A DNA stretch of 64,000 nt from Acaryochloris sp. CCMEE 5410 (GCF_000238775.2 NZ_AFEJ02000002.1:1-64000), one strand, 5' to 3'. Shown: positions 8,874 through 43,039, numbered from the stretch's first letter. Numbers and translations are program-made. Notes: generated by a model from the sequence alone, not told the origin.

Positions 8874-10185
8874 CTTTGGAGATGACAAGGCGCTTCAAAT
8901 CTAGAGTCAGTAGTAGATGTAGCAGTCTAATTTCAAAGAAAATAGGGTGGTCGAAACGACTACCCTATCCAAAATATGTTGCCAACATGCTACCAAAAGT
9001 ACTACGTGCTCACCTGAGCGAAAGCCAATATTTGACCTTGCAACTGTTGATACTGTTATTGCAAAGTCATCGCCAAATCCAACTGGCTCGGCTAGCCAGC
9101 ATGTTTCCTCAACCGATTCATTACAGCAGTCGCATCCGCAACTTGCAGCGGTTCTTAGTCCTACCCCAGTTGAGTGTACGTCTGTTATGGTTTCCCATTC
9201 TTAAGCACTGGCTTTCAGAAGAATTCAAGACAGGCCATGGCAATCGAGCCTATCGCCGAGCCCGCCTCAAACGCACCGTTAATGGCTATGTGGTGATGGC
9301 CGTTGACCGCACCCAATGGAAGGGACGTAATCTGATGATGGTGACAGTGGTATGGGGTAAACATGCCTTGCCTGTGTACTGGGAACCCTTGCCTAAATCA
9401 GGCAGTAGTAGTCTCAAACAGCAACTCCGTTTGTTGAAAACGGCTCTAAAAATCTTCAAACCCTATCCAGTTGTGGTACTAGCAGACCGAGAATTCCACA
9501 GTCCTAAACTGGCTCTGTGGTTGAGCCAACGACAGGTTGAGTTTGTGCTCAGGCAAAAGAAGAGTGCTTATGTTCAACTCCAGGGTGAAGTACTATCAAC
9601 CCCTCAAACAGAGGGGATTTACCCCAGGCCAGAAAGGGTTCCTTCGCGATGTCTATTGGGGAAAGCGAGACCAGTTGGGACCGTTTAACCTCGCGTTTTA
9701 CTGGAAGCGACAGTATCGAGGCAAGGGGGGAAAGATCCTTGGTTTATCATGACGAGTTTACCGACACTGGAGCAGGCTCTCTCGCTTTACGCTTGCCGAT
9801 GGGGAATAGAGATGATGTTCAAAGACTGCAAGAGTGGGGGATACAATCTCGAACGAACGAAAGTCAATGATGCTCGTTTCCTTGCTTTGGTACTGGTGAT
9901 GGCGATGGCCTATTGTTTAGCAATAGTCGCTGGCTATGGATTGAAAAAATTGAAAGTCAACCACTATGTTGCTCGGCTCAATGAGCACTCTCGGCGGCGG
10001 CCTCGACACAGTGATTTTGGCACGGCGTTGTTTGGACATTTATGGTGTTGTGGCATGGAAATTTGGACCTCATTCGCCACTGAATTAATGCAACTGATAC
10101 CCCATAAACGACTCAATTATCAGAGGGGCATGAGGGCGCTATCACTGATTCAGACTATGTTGTAAAACCCTTGTCATCCCCAAAG
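8874..10185 (+). mobile_element. IS4-family insertion sequence
   Basis: The left end CTTTGGAGATGACAAGG (8874-8890) and the right end (10169-10185, reverse complement CTTTGGGGATGACAAGG) match in 16 of 17 bases. The 1.31-kb interval encodes an IS4-type transposase. No matching flank duplication is visible. The left neighbour is the truncated IS5-type copy B and the right neighbour is a fragment of another IS4-like gene, so the junction was rearranged rather than being a simple insertion. Confidence 0.75.
8876..10165 (+). pseudogene. IS4-family transposase with two frameshifts
   Basis: The N-terminal two thirds (to about 9600) contain MAVDRTQWKG with the first catalytic Asp and VVLADREFHS with the second. 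The frame then moves to another phase for about 150 bases (YYQPLKQRGFTPGQKGFLRD ... WKRQYRGKGGK). It returns at 9749 to the C-terminal part with YACRWGIEMMFKDCK, the exact Y-(2)-R-(3)-E-(6)-K signature of IS4. The true start is probably the ATG near 8990, since the first codons overlap the terminal repeat. The two shifts compensate, but the product would be interrupted. Confidence 0.75.
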
Positions 10186-10675
10186 CCTCCTCTATCTTTG
10201 ACTGTTGGACGCTTCGGGTCCCGAGTCCACAGTTGAAGTGCACTTAATCCTAATGGAAACCCCGTCTCGGCATCTAGGGCGAGGGTCGGGTGTATGAAAA
10301 AGCCCACATCGCGATCATTACCGACGACACCCAACTCTTCTCGCTTTAAGCGTCCTACATGAGATTGTAAATTGATCTCACTCGTGTCACTGACGGCTAA
10401 CACGTGTCGCCCTTTGACCTGTTGCTGGCAGTGATCACTAAGGCTTTTGACCAACTCAGATATGGACACATTCTCATTCTCTAAGAAGCGGTAGAAGCCC
10501 ACTTGCTCGGCGCGATTCTGGCTGATTTGACGGATACTGACGCTCTGATTGTGATTAATGGCATCGAATAATGAAGCCCCCTTTTGAGCAATCGAAGGTC
10601 ACCAAAGGTGGTGCTATCGATGAGTTCTTCATGTACCAAAATAGGATTATCCATAGCGTTGAGGATGTGCTGCAA
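10186..10675 (-). pseudogene. fragment of a second, different IS4-type transposase
   Basis: Reading leftwards, one frame gives MDNPILVHEELIDSTTFGDL and a second continues YRFLENENVSISELVKSL, then HVLAVSDTSEINLQ with the first catalytic Asp. The remainder reads GVVGNDRDVGFFIHPTLALD and LQLWTRDPKRP. This is the N-terminal third of an IS4-type transposase, different from the one at 8876. It has one frameshift near 10490 and is cut off at the edge of the IS4 element. Confidence 0.65.
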
Positions 10676-11048
10676 AGCTTCCTTTCAGTCTAAAACCGAC
10701 TTGTGTGTACACCGTAGGTTCCATAGGCTTGTTGCAGTTTTTTGATCCGTTGACGGCCTCGGCGAAGGTTGTCGTTTCTGATTTGGATGCGGTCATGCAG
10801 TACGCGGAACCCGACAAAGTTAGCTCCTTGCTGAGTTTCAAATTGCTGACTTTTTACGGGATGGATCTTGAGGCGTAAGGTCGCTAAGTAGTTTTCAATG
10901 GAGGTACGGCAGTGTTGGAGATATTGCCAGTCATCTGAGAATAAGGCGAGGTCATCTACGTAGCGCAGATACTTTGGACAACGCAGGTTTTCTTTAACGT
11001 AATGATCAAAGCTGTTGAGATAGACGTTAGCGAAGAATTGGCTGGTTA

Positions 11049-12350
11049 GGGATCTACAAATAAATAAGGTACCCATCAATTGGGCACAATCTTGATATCC
11101 CATTTGGGTAACGCTTCAGAACATAGCCATTGTTGTTTGTAGGCTTCTAGCTCATCTGAGGGCACAGTAATGTTCTTTTCATAGGTGCCCTCAATCAAAT
11201 GAACCAAAGGCTTCAATCCATTCCAGGTCATATTCGATGCCCACTGGACAGCCGTATCAATGGAGTTGAGGATAGTGCCATTCCAATATTGTTCCAAGGC
11301 TGCCCAACATCGCTCAATCGGATTGTATTTGCTGTGATAGGGCGGATAGTAAATCAGATGAACCGATAATCGTGTCATTTGGACAAACTCAACCATACGC
11401 TTGATAAATTGTGTGCGGTTACTGCGCACTGCAGAGCCGCCATCAAGGTTAATTTCTAATCCCTCTATCTGAGGATAGTTATCGTGATGTTCGCGCCACC
11501 AAGCCTCTAAACAATCAACAATAAAATCAGTAGTTTCAGCAGACTGACCAAAGTAAATTGACAGTTGCCCTGCGAGCACATCGAGAATCCCGAAGGGTAC
11601 CAAAATAGCGTCCCAATGGTCATCATGGTCATTGGCTTTTGTCGCGTCTAGGGTACGAGCTTTGCCGCCACGAGAGAGGTTGCCAATTTTAACTTTGGCT
11701 TTGCTATCAATCGAGATGCGCAATAGGTTGGGGGCCGCATCGGCAGCATAATTGGCTTGAGCGACATTTGCGAAAATCGCATCGGTTTGCGGCAGTTTTT
11801 TCAGGGGTTTAACTTTTTGGGTTTTTAAGCGATAACCCATTCGATTCAATAGATTGCCGATGGTTTGACGGGTTGGTAATGCCTCATCGCTGTAGCCTTT
11901 CTCCTCAATCAATGCCTCACGCACGGCCCTGGCACTGATACGGGTGTAGTACAACGTTGATTTGAACTTCGGATCAGCTTGGGCTTCACCATCAACTAAA
12001 TCCCGAATGTCAGTTGCTAAATGGGGTAGTTTCGTTTCGCTAAGCTGACGACCTCGGGCTTGATAGTTGTCAACGCATCTAATGCCAGTCCGTCGTTCAT
12101 CAAGGCCCAGTTGAACACTGGTACGTCTCCAACCTAAATGACGCTCAGCTTTGCGGGCAGAGCCGTCCAGGTAGTCTTCAGCCACTTTTGCCATGAATGC
12201 TCGCTTGTGTGGGCCTGTCAGTTTCTTGGCGGCATCTCGAAACGTCTCTTTTATAGGGGCATCTAGCATCAGATATCCTCAAAACAATCGGTCAATCATG
12301 TATTGACTTGTTTCTTAGATTCGCAGGTACTTTATTTCTTGGCAAGTCCC
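11049..12350 (-). mobile_element. ISAzo13-type insertion sequence inside the RT gene
   Basis: The outer bases form imperfect inverted repeats (GGGATCTACAAATAAATAAGG at the left starting 11049, GGGACTTGCCAAGAAATAAAG reading inward from 12350). TTA flanks both sides (11046-11048 and 12351-12353), a 3-bp duplication that restores the RT codons GNLTSQ when one copy is removed. Length is 1302 bp with one long transposase gene. Confidence 0.8.
11076..12269 (-). CDS. ISAzo13-family transposase
   Basis: A 397-residue uninterrupted product. The N-terminal half has helix-turn-helix-like segments (HLGWRRTSVQLGLDERRTG; TRQTIGNLLNRMGYRLKTQK). The catalytic core has LLRISIDSKAKVKIGNLSRG with the first acidic residue, then ISAzo13 signatures such as DHWDAILVPFGILDV, EINLDGGSAVRSNRTQFIK and YYPPYHSKYNPIERCWAALE. 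The ATG at 12269 gives the family's usual length. It is intact, so the element may still be mobile, although its insertion destroyed the host reverse transcriptase gene. Confidence 0.85.
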   Translation of the reverse strand: MLDAPIKETFRDAAKKLTGPHKRAFMAKVAEDYLDGSARKAERHLGWRRTSVQLGLDERRTGIRCVDNYQARGRQLSETKLPHLATDIRDLVDGEAQADPKFKSTLYYTRISARAVREALIEEKGYSDEALPTRQTIGNLLNRMGYRLKTQKVKPLKKLPQTDAIFANVAQANYAADAAPNLLRISIDSKAKVKIGNLSRGGKARTLDATKANDHDDHWDAILVPFGILDVLAGQLSIYFGQSAETTDFIVDCLEAWWREHHDNYPQIEGLEINLDGGSAVRSNRTQFIKRMVEFVQMTRLSVHLIYYPPYHSKYNPIERCWAALEQYWNGTILNSIDTAVQWASNMTWNGLKPLVHLIEGTYEKNITVPSDELEAYKQQWLCSEALPKWDIKIVPN

Positions 12351-12609
12351 TTAGGTTACCGATGGGCAACCCTCGTTTGCGGGTCAGTGGGGTTAGCAGG
12401 GTGTCCCCAGGGAAATATTCAATGGAAGGGTCTTGTTCATTGCTATTGTCGATAATTTTATCGATCAACCAAAGGGTTGAGGGACAGCGGATCTTCTTGT
12501 GCAGGACATTGTTGAGGATGTCTAGATCAATGGAGGGGAAGTATTTGCGGATATCGCACTGCAAGATATATCGGCTGCTACACAGCCCTATTTTTCAAGC
12601 GCTTTAATC

Positions 12610-13302
12610 TCAAACTTCAAAGTTAAATCCCTGTTGTCTCAATCGCTCGTATTTGCTTTGGTCAAACCGATAGAGCCTGGCAGCACGATGAGCAACTCCA
12701 GTTTGTTGCTCATCAAGGGGGATTAAGAGATCCATTTTTAGCAATTTCTTACGAAAGTTCCGTTTATCTAGTGGATGGCCAAGAACCGTTTCGTAAAGCT
12801 GCTGAATTTGGGTGAGTGTAAATTTTTGCGGCAGGAGTTCAAAGCCAATCGGTTCGTAGCGAACTTTGCCCTGTAAACGCTGGTTAGCTTGTTTCAAGAT
12901 TTGAGTATGATCGAAAGCTAGAGATGGTAAATTTTTCAGGCAATACCAGGCCGCATCCTCAGCATCAGTAGAGGCTTGTAAAGGATATTCAATTAGGTTG
13001 ATTAACGCGTAGTAGGCAACGGAGATGATGCGATCGCGTGGATCTCGACCCAAATCGCCAAAGGTATAGAGCTGCTCTAGGAAAATACCCTGAACCCCTG
13101 TTTCTTCTTGCAGCTCCCGGCGAGCCGCGTCCTCTAAAGATTCATCCATCTGTACAAAGCCTCCGGGCAATGCCCACTGATGTTGAAAAGGGGGAATCTG
13201 ACGCTGAATCAGTAGGACTTTGAGATCAATCTGTTCGTCTAGGCCAAACACCACGCAGTCAACGGTCAGGCCAGGGCGCGGATAGTCATAGGTATGGGGC
13301 AT
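12610..13302 (-). CDS. nrtR: NrtR-type Nudix transcriptional regulator
   Basis: The 230-residue product has an N-terminal Nudix domain with a complete catalytic box at residues 48-70 (from GFVQMDES to REL-QEETGV, fitting GX5EX7REUXEEXGU). A C-terminal winged-helix part follows ([24 protein letters not shown]). This is the NrtR architecture: in characterised members the Nudix fold senses ADP-ribose and related NAD metabolites and the winged helix represses NAD-metabolism genes. The intact box leaves open real hydrolase activity. The gene is divergent from a phosphatase/ADP-ribosylglycohydrolase/nicotinamidase-like cluster, with two inverted-repeat sites in between, which supports a local regulatory role. 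Confidence 0.8.
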
Positions 13303-32546: not shown

Positions 32547-35500
32547 CTAATCCCGGCTCCAGACTTTAATAGCACTATTTTTACTGCTACTGACCAAAGA
32601 CTGACCATCGGCGGCAAAAGCCAAGGAATAAATATCGCCTTGATAGCCTGTGAGAGTATGACGTAAGGCCCCCGTCGAAAGGTTCCAGAGTTTGACCGTC
32701 CGATCTAAACTCCCCGTTGCCAATGTATTCCCATCAGGACTAAAGGTCACCGCCGTCACGGGTTTAGTATGCTCCTGAAGGGTTCGACTCAATTTTCCAG
32801 ATTTCAGATCCCAGAGCCTTACGGTTTTATCCTGACCAGCGCTGGCTAACTGTTGGCTGGAAGGTCCAAAGGCAATGGAAATTACCCGGCCCGTATGTCC
32901 CTTAAAGGTCCGCAGAAGCTTGCCTGACTTCAGTTCCCATAACTTCACCGTCTTATCACTGCTAGCACTGGCAATCATCTGACCATTGGCACTAATGGTC
33001 ACCGAGCGCACTTGCCCCGAATGTCCCTTGAGGGTGCGGACAAGCTTGCCCGTTTTAATATTCCAAACTTTCAGGGTTTGATCTTCACTCCCACTGACCA
33101 ACAACGTGCCGTCAGGGCTAATGGCCACAGACCATACGGTTGCTGGATGGGCGGCAAAGGTTCTAAGGAGCTTCCCGGTGGGTACATCCCACAATTTAAT
33201 CGTGCAATCCCCACTAGCACTGGCTAAGATTTTACCTTTAGGGCCTAGGGCAATCGTCCAAACCTGATCTTTGTGATCTGACAGAGTTCGAATGAGCTGG
33301 CCTTTCCCTAAGTTCCACAACTTAATATCGTTTTGGTCACCACTGCCAATCAAGGTCTTGCCATCTGGGCTGAGGGCAACAGACCAAATTGCCTGTTTCG
33401 GGGCATTCGACAAGGTTTTTAATTGAGCATTCTTCCAATTGATACCTGCCTGGCACTGGGAGAATAGTTTCTGAGCAGAAGGATAGAGTCGAGAATCTTT
33501 GGGAATATTTTGAGTCTGGGCAATACAGGTGTCATAGCGTTTCTGTTGGGCCAGGGATTGCCAAAACTCCATCTGCTGTGCCTCTTTCTGCCGCTGTTGC
33601 GCCTCTTGTTGTTGACGCAGAATAGACATTAGTAGCAGAAGTGCGATCGCACCCGCCCCCGCAAACCACCAAACCCGCTTGGGTACCGACTGCACCTGAC
33701 GCCAAGACACGGAAGACAAGTTCACCCGATATCGAGCATTCCGTACAGACTGACTCACGATCATAGACAGATTTTGCCCCAGGGAAGTCAGGCGCTGAGC
33801 TGAGGTCTTCAGGGTCTGTTGCCCAACCCCCAGAGCCTGATGGAGCGGCTGAATCACCGTTTGATTTGACCAGGTTGAACTAGGTACCGCACGTCTCGGC
33901 GGTTCAGGGGCCTGTCCAGGGAATTGGATCACCTGAACCTGACGAATAATCGCGGATTCAACTGGAATCGTATCTGCATCCGTTAACCCCAAGGTGGCTT
34001 GAAACTGCCGAAACTGATCCTGCAAATAATCACTGACCGGATATTCTTGGCGCACGGCCTCCACAAAGGCCATGGCATATTCTTGCAGTTTAGTCTGATA
34101 GGCTTTACCCGGTTTACTCACCTCCGCCTCAATCATCTTGGCCATCTCTAAGTCCAGATCAAGGCTGGACTGAAGATTATCCAAAATCACCCGATTTACC
34201 TGCGATACCTCTCCACGCCCTGCATAGAATTCGAACTGACGGCGATAGACAAATTGGGGTTCATCGATGGCAGCTTGAGCCAAAGCTAAATTCTGTACTG
34301 CCTTGACATTATAAATTTGCGGTTCAATTGCCGGAATCTCTTGTTTGACCTTGCGCTTCCCATAGGCATACCATTCCTCCACCGAAATACTGCCGTCACA
34401 ATTTTGATCTGCAGCACCAGTTCTTAACCCTTCCACTAAATAAAACGTGTAAAGGGATAGATCAGCTCCCTTATGCACAAATGCATGGCGAGCCTGAGTC
34501 GCTGAGGTCATAATCGTCCGCCCCAATCCACCTAAATATTGAGGGAGATTCACCCCCCCGAGATGGGGATTGATAGCAGAGGTGTCAGTTTGTCGATAGC
34601 AGCAATCTAAAACTACAACCTGTCGTTCTGCCTTACTATCATTCAAAATATCTTGGAGCAGATCGGCTGAAACTAGGGTTGACCGCACCACTTTACCTTT
34701 TGAGTTAGTGCGGCTCATACTAGTGGTTAACCCAAATCGGCCATGATCATCCAACACCACCCCATGGCCAGAAAAATAGACCACGAGCAGATCATCAACA
34801 TCTCGATCTTGGCAAAAGCTTTCTAGGGATTCTGCCAAAATTTGGGGATTCGGGTTCAGTAAGGTTTGGACCTCATCAAAAGCAGCGATTTTAGGATTTT
34901 CTAGGACTTGCTTCATCACCGCAATATCCTGCTGGACCCCTGGCAATGGTTCAAAGCCATGCTCACAATGGCTGACCCCAATCAACAGAGCATTCTTAGT
35001 CGTGGGTACCCGAGTCATCGAGTCTAAGGTAATTCTCGGAGACTCTAGCAAACGCTCCAGGGAAGACAAAAGGGGCTGATTGTCCATTTCTGGTACGAGG
35101 GCATCAGCCGATGTTTCTTGCGGCATTTCAGAATCATTCTCTTTGCCGTTCACCACCTCCGACTCGCCGGGGATAGCCACCGAGAAATTGAGTAGCTTAC
35201 CTTTGTTGAGTAGCAAACGACATCGTGCCCGGGTACCAGACGGAACCATCACGCCGGGCAATGTCGGCTGCAAGCCATCTATCTGGTCAATGACGACCCT
35301 ATGGAGATCAGACGAAACCCTGTGACGTTCAATAAACGTCACAGGACCTCTCTCCAAGCAGGCATAGATTGTATCCAAGAGAGGATTATCCAGGGCACCC
35401 GCTAAACAATAGGCAATAAAGTAGGGGATGTGACTTCGGCCTAAGTCATCATCCCCTTGGTTATACATCCAGCCAAATAAGGTTAGCTCAGGAGAGATTT

Positions 35501-35681
35501 GAGCAAGGTAAGCCGCTCGATATCCTGGCTGAGGCGGCGCGTAAGAATTCCAATACTTATAAACCACCTGGGTTAAAAAAACTTGTTTCACTTCCTCCGG
35601 GACATCAGCACTACTGAGAGTCTGAAAGCCCTGATCAGGGAAGCTAGTGTAAACCAGTTGACCAAGATCTAGCGTTAGCAT
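32547..35681 (-). CDS. caspase-family protease fused to a membrane segment and WD40 repeats
   Basis: 1044 residues. An N-terminal region of about 200 residues has no family I recognise. A caspase-like p20 domain follows from about 225 (KNALLIGVSHCEHGFEPLPG), with the catalytic His306 in YFSGHG and Cys361 in DCC (D-x-C), both intact. A helical region with an EF-like DQNCDGSISVEEW comes next, then one membrane helix (AGAGAIALLLLMSIL, about 683) and seven WD40 blades at about 745-1044, each ending in LW or VW. It should be a membrane-bound cytosolic protease scaffold. The GTPase gene lies directly upstream, 23 bases away. Confidence 0.85.
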   Translation of the reverse strand: MLTLDLGQLVYTSFPDQGFQTLSSADVPEEVKQVFLTQVVYKYWNSYAPPQPGYRAAYLAQISPELTLFGWMYNQGDDDLGRSHIPYFIAYCLAGALDNPLLDTIYACLERGPVTFIERHRVSSDLHRVVIDQIDGLQPTLPGVMVPSGTRARCRLLLNKGKLLNFSVAIPGESEVVNGKENDSEMPQETSADALVPEMDNQPLLSSLERLLESPRITLDSMTRVPTTKNALLIGVSHCEHGFEPLPGVQQDIAVMKQVLENPKIAAFDEVQTLLNPNPQILAESLESFCQDRDVDDLLVVYFSGHGVVLDDHGRFGLTTSMSRTNSKGKVVRSTLVSADLLQDILNDSKAERQVVVLDCCYRQTDTSAINPHLGGVNLPQYLGGLGRTIMTSATQARHAFVHKGADLSLYTFYLVEGLRTGAADQNCDGSISVEEWYAYGKRKVKQEIPAIEPQIYNVKAVQNLALAQAAIDEPQFVYRRQFEFYAGRGEVSQVNRVILDNLQSSLDLDLEMAKMIEAEVSKPGKAYQTKLQEYAMAFVEAVRQEYPVSDYLQDQFRQFQATLGLTDADTIPVESAIIRQVQVIQFPGQAPEPPRRAVPSSTWSNQTVIQPLHQALGVGQQTLKTSAQRLTSLGQNLSMIVSQSVRNARYRVNLSSVSWRQVQSVPKRVWWFAGAGAIALLLLMSILRQQQEAQQRQKEAQQMEFWQSLAQQKRYDTCIAQTQNIPKDSRLYPSAQKLFSQCQAGINWKNAQLKTLSNAPKQAIWSVALSPDGKTLIGSGDQNDIKLWNLGKGQLIRTLSDHKDQVWTIALGPKGKILASASGDCTIKLWDVPTGKLLRTFAAHPATVWSVAISPDGTLLVSGSEDQTLKVWNIKTGKLVRTLKGHSGQVRSVTISANGQMIASASSDKTVKLWELKSGKLLRTFKGHTGRVISIAFGPSSQQLASAGQDKTVRLWDLKSGKLSRTLQEHTKPVTAVTFSPDGNTLATGSLDRTVKLWNLSTGALRHTLTGYQGDIYSLAFAADGQSLVSSSKNSAIKVWSRD

Positions 35682-35704
35682 CAGAGGGTCTTCCTAAAGT
35701 GAGA

Positions 35705-37069
35705 TTATTGGCTAGATTTAGACTGAACTTTTTCAGCCATCTGCCGAATTTGCTGTTTTAACGGATCCGTTGGTGCAGCAGCCTCAGCCTTGGTAAATAG
35801 GACTTTTGCAGCTGCTTTATCCCCCTGTTCGACACGCAAGGAAGCTTTGCTAGTTAAAGCCAGAATATTATCAGGATCTAACTCAATGATTTTGTCATAG
35901 ACACCTTCTTCTTTCTGCTTGTTCCCTTTAACTGCATAGAGGAAAGCCAAATCACTCAGATGCAGTGTATTTTCAGGTTGTAAACTGACCAGTTTTTCCG
36001 TCAGTGGCAATGCTTTATCGTATTCAAGCAGATCTCGATATATTTGAGAAAGCTGTGTTAAAGCTTCAAGATCATTGGGGTCGTTTTCAAGTACTTTTTG
36101 ATTATTCTCAATCCTATCCGCTACGGTCAGTGTTCTTTTGGGTGAAAACAATACACGGGTGCCTAAGAAGATTGCTAAGATGACCGCTATCAATGCAGCT
36201 CCGAGACCTAGCATTCGTTTACTTCCAAATGAGGATCTTGATCGATTACTCGATTTGACGGTTGCTAATGGTTGGGCCGTATTGTCTAACAGACGGTTAA
36301 ATCCACTCGCTAAAGACTGGGGCTTACCTTTTCGATGAATTTTACTTAGTTCCGTCGCCAACCAGAGCAACGGCGCAGAAGCCCCTTTTGCCTGCAGAAC
36401 CGACATTTTTCCATTTTTAACGATGGGAATCGTAGAGTAAAACCTGCGGTATTGTATCTGATTCGCATCCAAACGAGCCATTAAGGGTCGAATATTTTCT
36501 TCTATTTTTAGCAATTTCTGGGGATTTTCCGCCAAAAGATCACATTTTGTTAGCACAATAGCAAAAATATAGGTCAAACCACTTTGTCGAGCCAGTGAGG
36601 CGATAGTTTCTACCTGTTTCACAATGCCTTGAAGCGTCTGGCTATAAGCAGAATTATTAAATAGCGTATAGGTATCAATAAAGACACAACAACCATGGGA
36701 GTCCATCACCATTTTCTGGAAATTGGGGTTGTCGTTGTTGCAGATTTCTCCTGGAATATCCCACCAGCGAAACTGACACAGATCCTTTTCACCAAAAAGG
36801 TTTTGAGTTTTCGCGGCAAAATTAAAATTCGTTATTTTCATCGTTGCTGGCGGATATTGACCTGTTTGGGCAATATATTCCAGCAAGGTATTCAGGTTAT
36901 GTTGAACCTGGGTATCCTGACAGTCAAACCAGGTAGATGATTTGCGCGACCCACTATTCGCTTTTTGCTCAGCATAGCTACCCACCAAAAAGACAGTTTT
37001 ACCCACACCCCGATGACCAATGCTGAGTAAGTTAAACGTCTGGGTTTTTGTTTTTGACGGAGCATTCAT
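35705..37069 (-). CDS. GTPase-like protein with membrane helix and TPR repeats
   Basis: 454 residues. The N-terminal P-loop domain has GHRGVGKTVFL (Walker A, residues 18-28), WWDIPGE (switch 2 DxxG) and VLTKCD (specificity motif). A membrane helix follows (MLGLGAALIAVILAIFLGT, about 285), then three or so TPR repeats (LEALTQLSQIYRDLLEYDKAL and following) outside or across the membrane. It resembles GTPases associated with bacterial conflict systems. It starts the transcription unit whose second gene is the caspase-WD40 protein, so the GTPase may be the sensor or switch. Confidence 0.75.
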   Translation of the reverse strand: MNAPSKTKTQTFNLLSIGHRGVGKTVFLVGSYAEQKANSGSRKSSTWFDCQDTQVQHNLNTLLEYIAQTGQYPPATMKITNFNFAAKTQNLFGEKDLCQFRWWDIPGEICNNDNPNFQKMVMDSHGCCVFIDTYTLFNNSAYSQTLQGIVKQVETIASLARQSGLTYIFAIVLTKCDLLAENPQKLLKIEENIRPLMARLDANQIQYRRFYSTIPIVKNGKMSVLQAKGASAPLLWLATELSKIHRKGKPQSLASGFNRLLDNTAQPLATVKSSNRSRSSFGSKRMLGLGAALIAVILAIFLGTRVLFSPKRTLTVADRIENNQKVLENDPNDLEALTQLSQIYRDLLEYDKALPLTEKLVSLQPENTLHLSDLAFLYAVKGNKQKEEGVYDKIIELDPDNILALTSKASLRVEQGDKAAAKVLFTKAEAAAPTDPLKQQIRQMAEKVQSKSSQ

Positions 37070-41689: not shown

Positions 41690-43039
41690 TTACCCCTGGG
41701 AATAGGGAGTCAAACCGTTGATTGACCCAGGCAAGCCGCAGCATGAGTAGATGATTGAAACCATCCTCACTCCAGCGCATACCAACCCCTTAAAGCGCTG
41801 TTGAATCAGCCACTTACAAGCACTTTCGACCATTCCTGACCCCAGCGGTATCTGTAGTTGTTCAAAGTGGCGATATTGGATGTGTCGCAGATGGCGCTGG
41901 AAATAAGCCTGTACCTGGAGCAACGTCGTAAAAGATTTGCCCGTAAACAATTGTGAGTGAATCAACATCGTCAAGGACCGCAATACTAATAGGTGTTGCC
42001 CATGTCGCAATTGGTGTCGCCAGCGCCGGAACCAGGCTTGGGCTTGAGCAGAGCGAACATCCCCAAACATCACTTTTGTTGCTCGTGCAAGATGGCCTGC
42101 TGCATGAAAAAATCGAGAACTGCCACAGCACAGTGAGAGAACAAGGTGCGGTAGACTCGCCAGAAGCCTCGCCCCCATCACTCAACCAGATGACGCTTGG
42201 GGCCGATTCAAAGTCTTGTTTGCGGGCTTCGAGTTGCAGTAAGGGGATGAACTGGTCGATATCGCCCAATACTGCTACCAGTCTTCGACGCAGTAGTTGG
42301 GGACACTCTTTTAGCTCGGGTGAGCCGTGTTCCCAGGCGGGCTAAGATAGCGACTTTAACTTCTCGCCACTGGATTTTCCCTTGGGGGTTTTGGAGTGGG
42401 GCGAAAGGGCACCATCACACCGTCAGCAGCAATGGCCAAAGGCAGAGCAGACAACACCTCTGAAATCGCTTCACTAGGAGCCTGTTCACCTGATGCTTGA
42501 GCTTTGAGTTGAGCCTCTAGCTCCTGATAAGCTTTGTTGCCCATGACTTGCACCCAATTCCACAAGCTTGATGAACTGACGGATAAACCACTCCACTGAC
42601 TCAGCATCCAACTGGCCAGTTCATAGGGCATAAATAGACTTAACAAGCAGCCTAGACGCACCAGTTCTTTACTGCTGTGCTGGTAAGAGGTAATCCCAAT
42701 GGATTGATCCAGAGGAGCTGATAGACTACCTGGACACCCTTTTGGACAACGACCCACCCGTCGCTTTCAGTAAATATTTCCCACCAGTGTCTGCATCTGA
42801 CGAGATTCCCATCCCTTCGAGTGCAAGCGGGTTCCGCAGGTGCTACACCTAGGCCATTCAAATACTGTTTTTGCTCGCCGTGAGAGTTCATCCTCCAGAA
42901 GCCATCGAGCCAAAAACAAACCCATTTGCAGAACGATATAAACCATCTGACTCAGGCTGGGTGATTCTTTGAGTGCTTCGACCTGTTCTAGAAATTCGTG
43001 ATGGGCTAGTACGGCTGGCAATTGCGATGTTAGGCTCAT
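41690..43039 (-). pseudogene. ISKra4-type transposase, several frameshifts
   Basis: Reading leftwards from the ATG at 43039, an N-terminal region contains CSTCGTRLHSKGW (zinc pair). ASWMLSQWSGLSVSSSSLWN follows in the next frame with LPLAIAADGVMVPFRP and its catalytic Asp. Then come IWLSDGG in a third frame and FFHAAGHLARATKVMFGD in a fourth. It ends with LGSGMVESACKWLIQQRFKG, the family's C-terminal acidic block. At least three frame changes make it inactive. I could not resolve terminal repeats. It ends 13 bases after the LuxR gene. Confidence 0.7.

Follow-up and report, generated by a model that had tools for sequence, protein, structure and literature searches.

The window examined here, a stretch of 64,000 nucleotides from Acaryochloris sp. 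CCMEE 5410 (NZ_AFEJ02000002.1:1-64000), belongs to a genome of 8.1 Mb and carries on its minus strand a GTPase gene followed, after 23 bp, by a caspase-WD40 gene. The features of the pair are as follows.

35705-37069, minus strand: GTPase gene (454 aa) encoding a G domain, a single transmembrane (TM) helix and a C-terminal TPR domain
36326-37042, minus strand: TRAFAC-type G domain, residues ~10-248, DO-GTPase2-related and structurally Rag-like (DO-GTPase2 profile and fold match)
36995-37018, minus strand: G1/P-loop GHRGVGKT, residues 18-25, with G18, R20, G21, G23, K24 and T25 invariant
36746-36760, minus strand: G3 motif DIPGE (D104IPG107, then E108) with invariant Pro-Gly-Glu (alignment)
36539-36550, minus strand: G4 motif T174KCD177 (alignment)
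36149-36211, minus strand: membrane helix of the GTPase protein, residues 287-307, basic on its N side (hydropathy)
35708-36136, minus strand: TPR domain of the GTPase protein, residues 312-454, predicted periplasmic from the basic N-flank
35682-35704, minus strand: 23-bp intergenic stretch with a ribosome-site-like GGAAGA 5' of the second ATG
32547-35681, minus strand: longin-like–caspase–TM–WD40 gene (1044 aa)
35160-35681, minus strand: N-terminal longin-like domain, residues 1-174, serving as core marker for the module in cyanobacteria (conserved family, AF2 model, fold matches)
34317-35006, minus strand: caspase (peptidase C14) domain, residues 226-455 (PF00656)
34764-34766, minus strand: catalytic His306 codon (alignment)
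34599-34601, minus strand: catalytic Cys361 codon (alignment)
33612-33674, minus strand: membrane helix of the second protein, residues 670-690 (hydropathy)
32550-33431, minus strand: seven-blade WD40 propeller, residues 751-1044, predicted to be periplasmic

A preliminary description of this DNA had reported two proteins encoded 23 bases apart with one membrane helix each, the first with an intact P-loop, DxxG and TKCD and the second with a His306/Cys361 dyad and seven WD40 blades. Open reading frames, hydropathy and flanking charge agree with the spacing and the helices, and every motif was recovered (GHRGVGKT, DIPG and TKCD in the GTPase; H306 in YFSGH, C361 in LDCC and seven WD40 stretches in its partner). 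Since these motifs are intact and an orthologous pair is found in five other Acaryochloris genomes, in identical order and with a gap of 20-23 bp, which is far beyond chance, the observation is real. The window pair is flanked upstream by an RsmB-like (rRNA methyltransferase-like) gene and downstream by a small NikL-like gene and PhoH, and the order rRNA methyltransferase-like gene, pair, NikL-like gene, PhoH is, as far as ORF maps show, a chromosomal synteny across the genus. Promoter and terminator scans returned fewer sites than in shuffled sequences. Elsewhere in the window (41690-42757), overlapping ORFs resemble transposase remnants of a broken insertion sequence.

The DO-GTPase2 profile (PF19993) matched 16 of the 22 members of the GTPase family (best E 3.4e-7), with the GTPase of locus L114 exceeding the curated cut-off and the window GTPase, taken singly, falling below it (E 0.002-0.011). 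P106, G107 and E108 are invariant in the 22 family sequences; in DO-GTPases, which belong to the TRAFAC GTPases, a Glu is conserved around Walker B (PMC7159879). Structural comparison of the GTPase model with VIA returned the Asgard RagA-like protein LokiRagO (Z 14.7 over 169 residues) as the sole GTPase among the best 50 matches, and the Foldseek matches of the full model were filled by TPR proteins. Taken together, profile and motifs suggest that the family is related to DO-GTPase2 as a divergent branch.

Residues 1-174 of the second protein constitute a separate conserved domain that the preliminary description had overlooked. Its invariant positions include Y11, F35, FGW 69-71, R82, PYF 86-88 and GP 112-113. 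Pfam gave no match for this domain in the 15 members tested, save one chance hit, and a PDB sequence search with the family profile returned no significant chain and thus no sequence-level link to longins. The AlphaFold2 model of the domain (pLDDT 88.9) is ordered b-b-a-b-b-b-a, the secondary-structure order expected of longins (b1-b2-a1-b3-b4-b5-a2). The top fold match was TagF, a type VI secretion accessory (Foldseek probability 0.97; VIA Z 8.5 over 156 residues), followed by a Lokiarchaeal (Asgard) longin at Z 8.4, values of about 8 being borderline; FLCN-complex/FNIP2, Lst4 and Nprl-type subunits of GATOR1/SEA came next at Z 6-7, and TRAPP and SNARE longins were also among the matches. Foldseek gave no match at E below 0.001. 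The likeness to TagF is confined to this predicted fold; the sequence is dissimilar, type VI genes are absent nearby and the partners are others. Single Z scores are borderline; that so many longins rank high among the fold matches is what persuades us that the domain probably has the longin-type fold predicted by the model. In other organisms the longin fold often handles GTP switches.

The remainder of the second protein comprises a caspase p20 fold (PF00656, E 4.8e-14) with the orthocaspase (C14B) dyad H306/C361, the membrane helix and the propeller. The NCBIfam model caspase_w_EACC1 scored 130.2 bits, below its cut-off of 140, and no EACC1 gene lies beside the caspase gene, the window neighbours being otherwise assigned. 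A K/R-rich flank was found on the N side of the membrane helix in both proteins. Because basic residues precede each helix, hydropathy and charge most likely place the G domain, longin and caspase in the cytoplasm and the TPR and WD40 domains in the periplasm.

The longin family was detected at E 1e-53 or better, with no weak tail, in 12 of 292 cyanobacterial genomes, and the 26 loci found in GTDB genomes are cyanobacterial without exception. On plasmids there was no significant match, only one chance-level partial match, and viral contigs held no relatives. The contig scan used a four-row alignment as its query. The GTPase family, counted at E below 1e-60 with five more genomes of weak partial matches left out, was present in 9 of the 292 genomes, all of them among the 12 (hypergeometric 6e-15, phylogeny ignored). 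A GTPase gene lies within 600 bp of 33 of the 52 non-redundant longin-domain ORFs (fragments included), on the same strand in 32 cases and usually first. Tree distances of the 33 paired GTPase and longin domains correlate (r 0.87), as shared ancestry alone could also bring about. A pair that is not conserved, which by the preliminary description would have refuted its reading, is as such not what was found: GTPase and longin protein are conserved together, GTPase and caspase within one genus only. Caspase-longin proteins persist without this GTPase family in three near-complete genomes (G009, G012 and G015), hence this GTPase is not a strict requirement for the longin protein. In genome G010 (L081/L132) the whole module is broken, with stops through the GTPase and longin genes, and in G167 (L146) a short GTPase remnant lies just upstream of an intact longin gene. 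These two genomes are cited in support of decay as a unit, which we count in favor of a GTPase–longin module.

The longin domain is joined to exchangeable parts, and most members of the GTPase–longin family carry no caspase. Longin–caspase–TM–WD40 proteins occur in Acaryochloris and in G009/G017; longin–TM–WD40 proteins lacking the caspase, the commonest form outside Acaryochloris, occur in Nostocales, G007 and G041; and longin–caspase–TM proteins occur in G012, G014 and G015. At a second Acaryochloris locus, the paralogous pair of the same genome, the longin is accompanied by Roadblock/LC7, another GTPase-partner fold, whose match (E 5e-4) falls slightly short of the cut-off. The remaining longin-domain proteins have no recognised extra domain. 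Caspase-bearing longins come exclusively from the window's (Acaryochloris) family, and a single branch (95/91 support) separates them and the caspase-less L073 from the rest; a single clade of them has a p-AU of 0.40 and is thus compatible with one origin. The His/Cys dyad is intact in five of the six Acaryochloris proteins (the window protein and four relatives) versus one of six outside the genus (G009). In the other five outside the genus the His is replaced by Tyr, with the Cys also lost in two; within the genus, otherwise intact, the exception is Acaryochloris CRU_2_0 (L056/L134), which has YYSGYG. The contrast between proteins with an adjacent GTPase (dyad intact in five of six) and those without (one of six) was not accepted as proof that the GTPase keeps the dyad intact, the six with a GTPase representing one genus. 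Given the one-branch fusion and the dyad mostly lost outside Acaryochloris, the protease is accessory rather than core: as read from these sequences, the caspase is a late, family-specific accessory output, and GTPase plus longin is the conserved cyanobacterial unit. The caspase-less L073 protein (9167-12949; G014) adjoins a CheA-like Hpt/kinase/CheW gene, which suggests another output for the longin family.

The nested distribution of the two families, their conserved gene orders, the predicted longin and Rag-like folds and the paralog with Roadblock make it probable, in our judgment, that the pair represents the version found in Acaryochloris of a GTPase–longin signaling module of cyanobacteria. 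The first protein would be a membrane-anchored DO-GTPase2/Rag-like switch with a cytoplasmic G domain and a periplasmic TPR domain, and the longin-like domain of the second would partner it as GAP, GEF or effector platform. The second protein would also carry what the longin controls, namely a cytoplasmic caspase-type domain and, across one membrane helix, the periplasmic WD40 propeller. The TPR and WD40 domains may sense binding events or assembly state and so alter the GTP cycle through the GTPase–longin contact; the longin protein would change in turn, and in Acaryochloris this could switch the orthocaspase domain on or off. Of this scheme, the topology, the direct GTPase–longin contact, nucleotide control of the protease and its substrates are inferred. 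A broader proposition, which we consider possible while leaning against it, is that Cyanobacteria own cross-membrane switches of Rag-like GTPase and longin with outputs that can be exchanged (propeller, caspase, Roadblock or peptide export), as a bacterial counterpart of Rag-FLCN/GATOR in which a caspase is under direct GTPase control. If the module works as proposed, a longin-type partner of a Rag-like GTPase would exist in bacteria as a simple two-gene operon, some cyanobacterial caspases would gain a concrete candidate controller, and GTPase-centric systems would extend into cyanobacteria, which are reported to be nearly devoid of them (PMC7159879); it would also bear on how long ago GTPases and longins, partners in Asgard archaea and in eukaryotes, came together. 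We found no description in the literature of this GTPase and longin–caspase pair.

The preliminary description had seen in the pair a nucleotide-switch protein tied to a protease at the membrane and had proposed a membrane-associated abortive response, in which the GTPase would sense infection and trigger a suicidal caspase. The first part is sustained insofar as the GTPase is paired with a caspase-bearing protein and is kin to the DO-GTPases, core components of described conflict systems whose effectors include caspase (PMC7159879), and the window protein and four relatives retain both dyad residues. The immune role itself is improbable because the locus is stably syntenic in the genus, among housekeeping neighbours with no adjoining defense genes and thus no defense island, PADLOC found only weak generic caspase and repeat matches at the window, and the caspase is dispensable, since most modules lack it and many copies are catalytically defective, frequently through Tyr in place of His; in addition, the longin family was not found in the viral contigs and plasmids searched. 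The same substitutions, seen in CRU_2_0 and in five of the six proteins outside the genus, could mean that the caspase is a scaffold on its way to a pseudo-orthocaspase, with catalysis not its function, and cyanobacteria are known to have pseudo-orthocaspases with Tyr for His (PMC2853523; PMC6426788). The dyad retained in most Acaryochloris proteins and in G009 speaks against this, and we hold it to be unlikely. Rather unlikely too, and nevertheless a serious rival, is control of peptide or protein export or of envelope state, in which the periplasmic WD40/TPR domains scaffold an export machine gated by GTPase–longin and the caspase does local processing or is part of the scaffold. It is serious because ten loci, some of them near-relatives (L051, L115, L122, L126-L129, L137-L139), have three genes ahead of the module, one HlyD-like, one for a C39-peptidase ABC exporter and one for a ~100-aa peptide with a double-glycine-type leader, and these ten include the paralog in the same genome; however, the window locus has no exporter or peptide gene nearby and many modules are without them.

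A further alternative, doubtful in our view, retains the GTPase and partner and takes the longin-like domain for a divergent GAP1-N, which would make the module a cyanobacterial branch of the DO-GTPase/GAP1 systems. The QLxYTS..GF start of the domain resembles what we take to be that of GAP1-N2. Shared with those systems are a partner encoded downstream of the GTPase, membrane linkage of both, the Glu after DxxG and the DO-GTPase2 kinship, as well as a GTPase with C-terminal TM and extracytoplasmic repeats and a partner fused to variable domains that include TM parts (Kaur et al., 2020; PMC7159879). Against it, no GAP1-M/C, FNIII or GASH partner was seen, the window neighbours being NikL-like, PhoH and RsmB-like genes with no FNIII or GASH third component, and in 386 cyanobacterial genomes nothing scored above the cut-off of the GAP1-N2 model, which did not match the longin-like domain either. 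A probe sequence for GAP1-N2 found nothing on plasmids or in viral contigs, and no GAP1-N2 was found in a Streptomyces plasmid. The systems also differ in that GAP1-N/M/C are undetectable here, the partner being longin-like with WD40, caspase or Roadblock, and in that the module turned up in our searches in cyanobacteria alone, a phylum from which the known systems are, according to their authors, nearly absent (PMC7159879). Since the GAP1-N2 model stayed below its cut-off in the 386 genomes, we do not assign the module formally to DO-GTPase/GAP1 systems; profile-profile comparison might prove the partner domains to be homologous.

The GTPase–longin module as we propose it shares the predicted folds of both partners with the eukaryotic Rag GTPases and their longin regulators (FLCN–FNIP2/Lst4 and Nprl2/Nprl3 of GATOR1) and with Asgard Rag-like and longin proteins; combinations of longin, Roadblock and GTPase domains are known from Asgard archaea as well (PMC10933270). 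It differs from the Rag systems in having no Rag heterodimer, no Roadblock on the GTPase and a TM anchor, and no sequence-level homology was found between them. In common with MglA–MglB and with the conservons of Streptomyces (CvnD GTPase and CvnB Roadblock; PMC4316618), it is a bacterial operon that encodes a small GTPase together with its own partner from the longin/Roadblock class of folds, the paralog in the same genome even having a Roadblock domain, whereas the partner here is longin-type with a membrane helix, WD40 and caspase, and the GTPase falls in DO-GTPase2 and is not shown to be an MglA. Cyanobacterial orthocaspases/metacaspases with WD40 (PMC2853523; PMC8283722) likewise combine C14 and WD40 with one TM and Tyr-for-His variants, and Acaryochloris caspase–WD40 proteins have been listed as metacaspases (PMC2853523); the N-terminal longin-like domain and the operonic GTPase set the present protein apart, the word GTPase being absent from the main text of both papers (PMC2853523 and PMC8283722).

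Several minor observations concern related loci. In the ten exporter-linked loci, among them the paralogous pair of the same genome (L051 5543-11024, corresponding to C2 at about 1,637,500-1,643,000), the HlyD-like, exporter and peptide genes stand directly before the GTPase and longin genes. The exporter-linked peptides have leaders such as ELSDPEQETISAG and ELSETEQESLAGG and a conserved core RTTFAFGG or RTGYSFRQTTLAF, and are possibly an uncharacterised family of secreted peptides. The window's genome encodes one more member of the GTPase family, the third, which stands alone (L052 9072-9878, with orthologues L086-L089); it is conserved in the genus, where it adjoins alanine dehydrogenase and epimerase-like genes and has neither a longin neighbour nor a clear membrane anchor, and the missing longin neighbour counts against the module reading. 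Finally, a conserved five-gene cluster occurs on cyanobacterial plasmids (L148 103-5773 and L149 5995-11710, Anabaena sp. 90 plasmid); its Calothrix plasmid version consists of three DO-GTPase-like genes and two proteins of no known kind, and its Geminocystis version lies near an anti-phage dCTP deaminase gene.
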